Origin: Thermoplasmatales archaeon
GTDB taxonomy: Archaea > Thermoplasmatota > E2 > UBA202 > JdFR-43
Direction of reading: 5' to 3'
DNA length: 64,000 bases
NCBI GenBank assembly: GCA_014361195.1
Contig: JACIWA010000004.1
Location: forward strand, 1 to 64,000
The notes below the pieces were generated by a model. That model worked only from the letters and a program-made list of their open reading frames with translations. It was not told where the DNA came from and did not search any database. Positions 15,612 to 18,103 of the stretch are shown one piece after another. Position numbers and translations under genes: made by a program. Each line of letters opens with the position of its first letter. Position 1 is the first letter of the stretch.

Positions 15612-16781
15612 ATGAAAATTAAAGGGTTGATATTATCAAGGATTTTAGAAGCAATAATATTTGCTATAGGTATTTTCAGCATATATAAAGGTTATTTTGC
15701 TCAATCTCTTGCATGCTTTGTTGGTCTATTTTTATCTCTTATGCCAACAATTATAAAGAGGAATTTGAAAATATCTCTTCCATGGTTATTTGAGTTCCTT
15801 ATTGTTTTTTCTGTATCATTGCATATATGGGGTGGGGCGCTTGGCCTTTATTCCCTGCCTTTCTATGATAAATTTGCGCACTTTATTGTGTCCGCTATTA
15901 TTTCTTTTTTTGCTCTTATGGTTGTTTATATTTTGACTGTTTTTTCTCCCCGCCTTTATATGGATTCCTTGACAATGATGTTTTTTATTATAATTTTCAG
16001 TCTTGCAATAGGGGGGCTATGGGAAATTGCTGAATTTTTTTATGATAAGTTTTTCTTTGGTTATTCCGCATCCCAAATAAGCTTGGATAATACAATGGGT
16101 GATTTAATTGCTGATCTCTTAGCGGGGATAATTATAGCTATATTTGGAACAATTGCAATAAGAAGAGGGGAATTTAAGGATATATTGCACATGGCTCATA
16201 AACATAGAGATAAATTTATTTATACAAGAGGGAGGGCAATAAAAGCTCTGGAAGAGGCAATTGAAAAAGAAAAAGTGGATGAGAAAGTTTTACCAATAGT
16301 GGAGAAGATAAATAAGAAAGAGGATTTTTTTACAACAAGCAGTTGTGCGGGAAGGATAGTAATTATAGAAGTACCTCATTTTGGAATGAAAAGAAATGCT
16401 CGCTTCCTAGGGAAATGGCATGATAAAATTGATGAAAAAGATTTAAGAAATGCAATTAAAAAAGCAAAAAAGGGAGAGATATGGTTTTTGGTTCAATCCC
16501 CGATTTTCCATATTTCGACAATTTCGATAGAGAATGCAAAAAAAATTTTGAGCATAGCAAATAATAGCGGGTTTAAATATTCCTCAATAAAAAATTTCAA
16601 TGGAAGATTTATTGTTGAAATTTTGAGCAGTGAAAGAATAGATGTTCCAATTGGGAAAGATGGGAGGATATTTGTAAGTGATGAATATCTGGAAATATTG
16701 AGGGATATAGCCAATCATATGATTGAAGTTATTGATGGAAAGTTGAAAAGGCTTGAAAAAAATATTGAAAATATGATGTAA
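15612..16781 (+). CDS. DUF2238/YjdF-like membrane domain fused to Taw3 (TYW3-type wyosine methyltransferase)
   Basis: A 389-residue continuous ORF. Residues ~1-178 form five or six TM helices with DUF2238-like signatures (YDKFAHFIVS; GGLWEIAEFFYD; NTMGDLIADLLAG). Residues ~205-385 match archaeal Taw3: TTSSCAGRI near 237-245, HFGMKRNARFLGKWH, LVQSPIFHIS, SGFKYSSIK and DVPIGKDGRIFV. Taw3 N-methylates the wyosine intermediate at position 37 of tRNA-Phe and is normally soluble and about 200 residues. An internal ATG (16192, MAHKHRDKF) could give a separate soluble Taw3. No frameshift is needed for the fusion. Confidence 0.8.
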   Translation: MKIKGLILSRILEAIIFAIGIFSIYKGYFAQSLACFVGLFLSLMPTIIKRNLKISLPWLFEFLIVFSVSLHIWGGALGLYSLPFYDKFAHFIVSAIISFFALMVVYILTVFSPRLYMDSLTMMFFIIIFSLAIGGLWEIAEFFYDKFFFGYSASQISLDNTMGDLIADLLAGIIIAIFGTIAIRRGEFKDILHMAHKHRDKFIYTRGRAIKALEEAIEKEKVDEKVLPIVEKINKKEDFFTTSSCAGRIVIIEVPHFGMKRNARFLGKWHDKIDEKDLRNAIKKAKKGEIWFLVQSPIFHISTISIENAKKILSIANNSGFKYSSIKNFNGRFIVEILSSERIDVPIGKDGRIFVSDEYLEILRDIANHMIEVIDGKLKRLEKNIENMM

Positions 16782-16816: not shown

Positions 16817-18103
16817 ATGCGCGCGATTATGCGATGCCTGATAGCTCAATGCTTAATAATTTCCATGCTTTTCATAATCCTCGCTAATGGCGATGAAGAA
16901 AATGAAATAAATGTTGCAATATATTTTTCAGGAGTTAAAAGATATGCGGAAGAAATAAAAGATGCAATTGAATATAGCTGGATTCACAGTGGAGAAAAAT
17001 ATAAAATTTCATCTGAAATAATAACTAGGAAGGATGTAATAAACGGGAAATTATCGCAATATGATGTTCTTGTTATTCCAGGCATCGCCCGCCCCTATCT
17101 GGATGCGATTGATGCGAGATGGAGGAATGAAGTGAGGAAATTTGTTGAAAATGGTGGAGGGTATATTGGAATATGTGGAGGGGCAAATCTTGCAAGTGTT
17201 GGATTTGATGGCATGGATATAAATATTGTTCTTAATCCTTTCTTGCTCAAGATAGCAAATGTTTATGTAAATGATGAGCAATATGAAGAATGGCAGTATT
17301 TATGGCGCTCCAACTGGAGATATGGAGGTGTGCCTTTAAAGATTTACATAAATTTCAGTGAAAATCCAATATTCAGCGGATTTTATGGTGAGGAGAGAAG
17401 TATAAGATACTGGGGAGGGCCAGGAATGTATGAAGCAAATCTAAAAGATGAGAAATTTGGAAAAATAGTTCCTCTCGCTACATATATAGAAGAGCCGATG
17501 GAAGTGGCACCATTGCATTACTGGAGATGGGCGGGAGGATGGATTCCTTATAAAAATATCACCACTGATATAAAGGGACAGTATGCGGTAATTTCAACTA
17601 CCTATGGCAAGGGGAAAGTTGTTCTATTTGGCCCTCATCCAGAGAGAGAAACATTTTTTGATGGATATGTTGAAGAATTTCCTGTTCATGAAAAACTTTC
17701 TCCTTTTACCTGGTTTATTTATAACTGGGTGAGCAATAATTCAAGTGAGATAAGCTACAACTGGTGGATTTTGAGAAGAGCGGTTGCATGGGCTGGAAAT
17801 TTTGAAATTTCTCCCGCAAGCAATACATGCATTATTATAGAAGAGCCAAGATATGGGATTTATTTAAATGGAAGAAAAATAGTTTATAGCCAGAATACAA
17901 TTGTAATTGGCGCTTCAAATATATTCTGCAAGGCAATAAATACCTCTGAGAATATTCTCTATTTAGATGATGAAATTATCTATAAAGGCATAGGAGACAT
18001 TCGTCTCACCATCAATTTTCCTCAAGGGATTCATATTTTAAAAGCAATAGGAAAAAATGAAAAAGAAGAAGTAAAAAATGAAGTAATAGTTTTGGGAGGA
18101 TAA
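16817..18103 (+). CDS. Secreted class I glutamine amidotransferase-like (BPL-N type) protein with C-terminal Ig-like module
   Basis: A 428-residue protein with a signal peptide (LIAQCLIISMLFIILANG). Residues ~30-300 form a flavodoxin-like GATase-1 fold of the kind seen in the N-terminal domain of some biotin-protein ligases: VLVIPGIARPYLD, a nucleophile-elbow Cys in GYIGICGGANLAS, and GKVVLFGPHPER with a His. The last ~100 residues, beginning EEPRYGIYLNGRKIV, resemble the Ig-like module of other secreted proteins here. Substrate unknown. The start could be at 16817 or the in-frame ATG 16829. Confidence 0.6.
   Translation: MRAIMRCLIAQCLIISMLFIILANGDEENEINVAIYFSGVKRYAEEIKDAIEYSWIHSGEKYKISSEIITRKDVINGKLSQYDVLVIPGIARPYLDAIDARWRNEVRKFVENGGGYIGICGGANLASVGFDGMDINIVLNPFLLKIANVYVNDEQYEEWQYLWRSNWRYGGVPLKIYINFSENPIFSGFYGEERSIRYWGGPGMYEANLKDEKFGKIVPLATYIEEPMEVAPLHYWRWAGGWIPYKNITTDIKGQYAVISTTYGKGKVVLFGPHPERETFFDGYVEEFPVHEKLSPFTWFIYNWVSNNSSEISYNWWILRRAVAWAGNFEISPASNTCIIIEEPRYGIYLNGRKIVYSQNTIVIGASNIFCKAINTSENILYLDDEIIYKGIGDIRLTINFPQGIHILKAIGKNEKEEVKNEVIVLGG

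Follow-up and report, generated by a model that had tools for sequence, protein, structure and literature searches.

The window, i.e. the whole stretch of 64,000 nucleotides that was analysed, carries on its forward strand a gene in which a predicted membrane domain is followed by a complete Taw3, a tRNA methyltransferase of wyosine synthesis. The features are the following:

15612..16781, + strand: lipocone-Taw3 fusion gene (389 aa, starting with ATG, coordinates including the stop codon, no internal stop)
15612..16163, + strand: membrane half, residues 1-184, two N-terminal helices and a four-helix core, Wok/DUF2238-like lipocone
15867..16115, + strand: interval covering the predicted active-site residues of the lipocone, D86, K87 and H90 (H2), E138, E141 and D145 (H3), D164 and D168 (H4)
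16164..16205, + strand: juxtamembrane linker, residues 185-198, basic and poorly conserved
16191..16193, + strand: internal ATG (codon 194), proposed as a second start in the preliminary description
16206..16778, + strand: complete Taw3/TYW3 half (residues 199-389), which includes TTSSCxGR (241-248) and further residues invariant in the family

The preliminary description had placed a membrane domain and Taw3 in one uninterrupted frame and had suggested a search for other DUF2238-Taw3 fusions. The single frame was confirmed, and the same frame is open in 17 genomes besides that of the window. When 59 genomes, i.e. that of the window and those of 58 relatives, were searched in six frames, the uninterrupted fusion was recovered in 18, including the window. 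Fourteen of these belong to one family (f1) and four to another (f2) of a single Thermoplasmatota order of uncultured archaea, a distribution far beyond chance. In the public contig set, at least 15 named metagenome assemblies carry the fusion; they stem from several projects and bear the labels Thermoplasmata, Thermoplasmatales, Thermoplasmatota or just archaeon. Halves lying as adjacent separate genes, an arrangement that had been associated with an assembly artefact, were found in none of the genomes examined. Both halves are under strong purifying selection: in close pairs, dN/dS is about 0.05-0.09 over the membrane half and 0.03-0.12 over Taw3.

As the genomes are metagenome assemblies, an assembly error or a frameshift could have joined two genes. 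However, 18 assemblies stemming from several projects share the junction, its flanks are syntenic and both halves evolve under purifying selection, and we give this explanation practically no credence. Indeed, because the same frame is open in 18 genomes of two families, the frame 15612-16781 is a genuine clade-wide fusion of the membrane half and Taw3 and not an assembly error.

Among 292 sampled genomes of the phylum, the frames that carry a Taw3 never exceed 258 codons outside f1 and f2. Likewise, no hydrophobic N-terminal extension was seen at the 62 scorable loci among 64 further archaeal Taw3 loci, the sampling beyond the phylum corresponding to the best 80 of 445 matches. As no extended Taw3 was found outside f1 and f2, the fusion is known here only from one order.

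The two halves of the fusion protein

The assignment of the C-terminal half to Taw3 is confirmed by curated-score matches, fold and retained residues. Residues 208-385 score 214.6 bits against the NCBIfam Taw3 model NF047731 (curated cut-off 200), and this half scores 161.5 bits against Pfam TYW3 PF02676 (cut-off 27). The nearest solved structure is Pyrococcus horikoshii PH1069 (184 bits, E 3.9e-53), and the model of the Taw3 half matches 2it3 in Foldseek with an E of 6.3e-17 and a TM-score of 0.90 of the target, i.e. the known Taw3 fold. By comparison with 37 stand-alone archaeal Taw3, all 18 fusions keep D223, N234, T241, S243, S244, C245, G247, R248, G258, K260, H300, GFK (320-322), E336 and E341. 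The exceptions among the residues invariant in stand-alone proteins are H270, replaced in the four f2 fusions, and K377, replaced in three others. The former is the histidine of the GKWH motif (position 270 in the numbering of the window protein), which is invariant in the 37 stand-alone archaeal Taw3 and in the f1 fusions, whereas each of the four f2 fusions (L015-L018) has an Asp or a Glu instead.

The N-terminal half had been described as a DUF2238-like domain with five or six transmembrane helices. The models settle the number at six, located at residues 2-25, 29-52, 58-76, 85-111, 119-148 and 158-184. The AlphaFold2 model of the membrane half alone (34 sequences) has a pLDDT of 92.8 and a pTM of 0.87. 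That of the whole fusion (18 fusions) displays six membrane helices and a folded Taw3 with a mean pLDDT of 81.6 and a pTM of 0.51, and because of this latter value the relative placement of the two halves is uncertain. The likeness to DUF2238 (PF09997) stands, as this family was matched in 16 of 17 members, but the Pfam cut-off of 26.4 bits is not reached, either by the membrane half of the window protein (15.8-18.1 bits) or by the best relative among the matches listed (23.9 bits).

The membrane half fits the description of a Wok-like lipocone, its predicted active site being intact, better than that of a plain anchor. Part of the Wok family, which belongs to the lipocone superfamily, falls under DUF2238 (PMC12419801, 2025). 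Wok proteins combine two extra N-terminal helices, a four-helix core and a variable cytoplasmic C-terminal tail, and their pocket is inferred to have ancestrally carried a His in H2, a Glu in H3 and an Asp in H4 (PMC12419801). The model of the membrane half includes the two N-terminal helices ahead of a four-helix core. In the alignment of the 18 fusions, D86, K87, H90, E138, E141, D145, D164 and D168 are invariant, so that the Wok pattern is matched by H90, by E138 and E141, and by D164 and D168. Helix count, residues and tail thus suggest a Wok-like protein rather than a proven member of the family. This cautious label is used because the DUF2238 cut-off is not reached and because the 'handle' between H3 and H4 is unclear, the stretch 149-157 being short and unstructured in the model of the membrane half. 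A profile search of the PDB with the membrane half retrieved no solved relative. Foldseek and VIA-align searches with its model gave generic helical matches only (no E below 0.001 and no Z of 8 or more), a result that does not by itself exclude known folds.

Stand-alone lipocones are also present in the phylum, and some of the paralogues found in related genomes have lost active-site positions. Two or three tandem paralogues, some of them devoid of the catalytic motif, occur at each of three loci (L161:4674-6658, L162:3068-4430 and L163:7293-9324), where they adjoin genes resembling CorA, CBS-domain and MscS-type transporters. More generally, as read by eye from sequence, the neighbours of stand-alone lipocones are a mixture of CorA-, CBS-domain-, MscS-, Lhr- and TruD-like genes. 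Ten other long lipocone frames of the phylum were scanned; none includes Taw3 and only one includes a second Pfam domain, SLFN_AlbA_2. This frame (L152:961-2076, G035:C24), which joins a lipocone-like membrane domain to SLFN_AlbA_2, is another candidate fusion to a nucleic-acid-related domain. Another frame (L154:1007-2221, G024:C5) encodes two lipocone domains.

Orientation in the membrane, linker and internal start

The basic residues are unevenly distributed along the protein. Loop 2 and the segment following helix 6 carry 2.4 and 6.1 Lys+Arg per sequence, versus 0.06 and 0.33 for loops 3 and 5. With six helices, the positive-inside rule would put both the N- and C-termini inside; Taw3 would accordingly be cytoplasmic, the lipocone pocket would be on the outer face, and the invariant polar residues would then occupy those ends of helices 4, 5 and 6 that face outward. 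The membrane tethering of Taw3 put forward in the preliminary description is therefore the natural reading of the helices and charges, but it keeps the status of a prediction. As the two predicted active sites would lie on opposite faces of the membrane, a shared substrate or a direct passing of substrate between them is unlikely.

The linker is less conserved than either half and varies in length and sequence. It is basic (6.1 Lys+Arg per sequence over 184-200), only two of its 17 positions are invariant over 185-201, and residues 193-198 have the lowest confidence of the whole-fusion AlphaFold2 model.

It has been proposed that the gene yields two products, the full fusion and a soluble Taw3 initiated within the linker. 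The internal ATG does exist, although at 16191-16193, i.e. one base earlier than the position initially given (16192), and it is preceded by AAGGAT about 10 bases upstream. However, ATG is absent from the linker of 14 of the 17 other fusions, and seven of the 18 have no ATG, GTG or TTG in the examined linker region, candidate codons being scattered in the remainder. Even the closest relative (G001) has only a GTG, located at the codon following the position of the window's ATG. As the internal ATG is not conserved, a conserved second soluble product is unlikely; the soluble Taw3 initially envisaged is not supported, and the production of two proteins appears very improbable.

Single origin, losses and gene neighbourhood

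The fused lipocones form a single clade relative to 18 stand-alone lipocones (support 98/98), and therefore a single fusion event is likely. The tree of the Taw3 half does not group the fusions cleanly, although it does not reject a single clade either (p-AU 0.17). In two f1 genomes, G004 and G007, Taw3 has been kept at the same locus and the lipocone half has been lost. Indeed, their Taw3 gene adjoins the same two genes (read as ThrRS and as a secreted protein) as the fusion does in many other f1 genomes, and the rest of each genome yielded no homologue of the membrane half. In G004, an IRKG stretch can still be aligned with the fusions where their last helix ends and the junction lies, and it is likely a scar of the lost membrane half. 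Most likely, the fusion was gained once and the membrane half was lost at least twice, bearing in mind that the genomes are incomplete drafts in which absence is less certain than presence. A stand-alone Taw3 (L047), which forms a long branch inside the fusions in the Taw3 tree, was considered as a further loss and rejected, its neighbours being different. This gene (L047:5253-6573) overlaps a phosphoesterase-like gene downstream of an Lhr-like helicase gene, and the stand-alone lipocones of L159 and L160 are also close to Lhr-like/phosphoesterase-like genes.

These data bear on whether the fusion matters to the cell. It may be essentially neutral, two unrelated genes having been joined by chance in an ancestor, with halves that work independently and a placement of Taw3 that is without consequence. 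The losses in G004 and G007 are consistent with this, since a membrane half lost while Taw3 is kept implies that the tether is dispensable there. So are the location of the predicted sites on opposite membrane faces, which leaves little room for a shared substrate, and the genome G018 of the third family of the order (f3), in which Taw3 and the lipocone are separate genes on different contigs with unrelated neighbours. However, the fusion is kept in 18 of the 20 f1 and f2 genomes in which Taw3 was found, and a split into two working genes was never seen. We therefore regard neutrality as rather unlikely, though it deserves serious consideration.

The neighbourhood of the fusion varies between genomes (some gene names being read from sequence): much of f1 has ThrRS and a secreted-looking protein, f2 has Alba, pyrB and pyrI, and the window has nadA and pyrB/pyrI nearby. 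Operon logic was considered as a clue to function and rejected, as neighbours that differ between genomes give no functional hint. In the window, positions 16817-18103 encode a secreted-looking protein with a BPL_N/glutamine-amidotransferase-like domain, and three of the compared genomes have this protein downstream of the fusion.

Possible role and known systems

Archaeal wyosine synthesis is usually pictured as soluble. The genome of the window encodes Taw1 (413 bits, cut-off 318) and two proteins under the strict equivalog cut-offs, which come closest to Trm5b and Taw2, respectively; the fusion is the only Taw3 copy found. Its tRNA-Phe has the anticodon GAA and a G37. According to the archaeal scheme of PMC7761594, the expected product would be 7-aminocarboxypropylwyosine (yW-72). 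The window also carries, on the reverse strand (1213-1309), a tRNA-Tyr gene of 97 bases that probably includes an intron.

We consider it fairly probable that the gene encodes one bifunctional membrane protein, in which an intact Taw3 forms the cytoplasmic C-terminus of a six-helix Wok-like lipocone and is thereby held at the membrane. At the inner face, Taw3 would methylate the tricyclic wyosine base at G37 of tRNA-Phe, this last methylation being SAM-dependent. The membrane half would be an enzyme acting on lipid or polyisoprenoid head groups, its pocket turned toward the outer leaflet. Indeed, Wok proteins are predicted to catalyse reactions on phospholipid or polyisoprenoid head groups, and the outer leaflet is where integral lipocones are expected to work (PMC12419801). 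The two activities would pass no substrate to each other but would share location, copy number and perhaps regulation. The likely role of the membrane half would be to tether wyosine synthesis to the membrane, the benefit of tethering, the topology and the catalysis by each half being inferred.

Two other roles can be envisaged for the membrane half. It could sense the state of lipids or head groups and regulate Taw3, thus coupling membrane condition to the decoding of Phe codons. The full conservation of the lipocone active-site residues in all fusions agrees with this, as does the occurrence of some other lipocones in sensor positions (PMC12419801), but a linker variable in both length and sequence does not suggest a rigid signal path, and sensing seems improbable. 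We accord equally little probability to the broader proposal that an outer-leaflet lipid-head-group enzyme controls or localises the cytoplasmic Taw3, so that lipid state would set wyosine methylation and the fidelity of the reading frame at Phe codons. Alternatively, the membrane half could be a mere anchor deprived of any catalytic role, an idea compatible with the lack of any solved or tested relative among those found and with the inactive appearance of some related stand-alone paralogues. However, the predicted catalytic positions are invariant in the 18 fusions and the constraint on this half equals that on Taw3, which makes a mere anchor improbable.

Under the preferred reading, i.e. 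a bifunctional protein that holds Taw3 at the membrane, the clade-wide fusion of Taw3, the last enzyme of wyosine synthesis, to an integral membrane protein whose own predicted active site is intact suggests that this step is done at the membrane, as for yeast Tyw1 on the endoplasmic reticulum. Furthermore, the poorly understood Wok/DUF2238-like proteins gain an unexpected cytoplasmic partner, and relatives with a fused, separate or membrane-free Taw3 provide a natural comparison set.

No earlier report of a TYW3-domain fusion was found in the literature searched, and the fusion constitutes a new architecture for two known families. With Taw3/TYW3 proteins (COG1590; PF02676; NF047731) such as PH1069 (2it3, 2drv), it has in common the full-length domain, TTSSCxGR, GFK and the paired Glu. 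However, the described Taw3 proteins are soluble and about 200 aa long, whereas the fusion adds a hydrophobic N-terminal domain that is absent from the Taw3 examined outside f1 and f2. With the Wok lipocones (partly PF09997), it shares the N-terminal helix pair, the four-helix core, the His/Glu/Asp pattern and a cytoplasmic tail; it differs by its scores below the DUF2238 cut-off and by a tail that is a whole tRNA methyltransferase, an arrangement absent from the main text of PMC12419801. Yeast Tyw1, which has an ER-anchoring region, likewise belongs to wyosine synthesis and is attached to a membrane on its cytosolic side (PMC8153317), but it is another enzyme of the pathway and uses its own anchoring region, without any attached lipid enzyme. 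Human CDKAL1, a tail-anchored ER tRNA methylthiotransferase according to Brambillasca 2012 as cited in PMC7545696, is also a membrane-anchored tRNA-modifying enzyme, but it is unrelated and held by a single C-terminal anchor.
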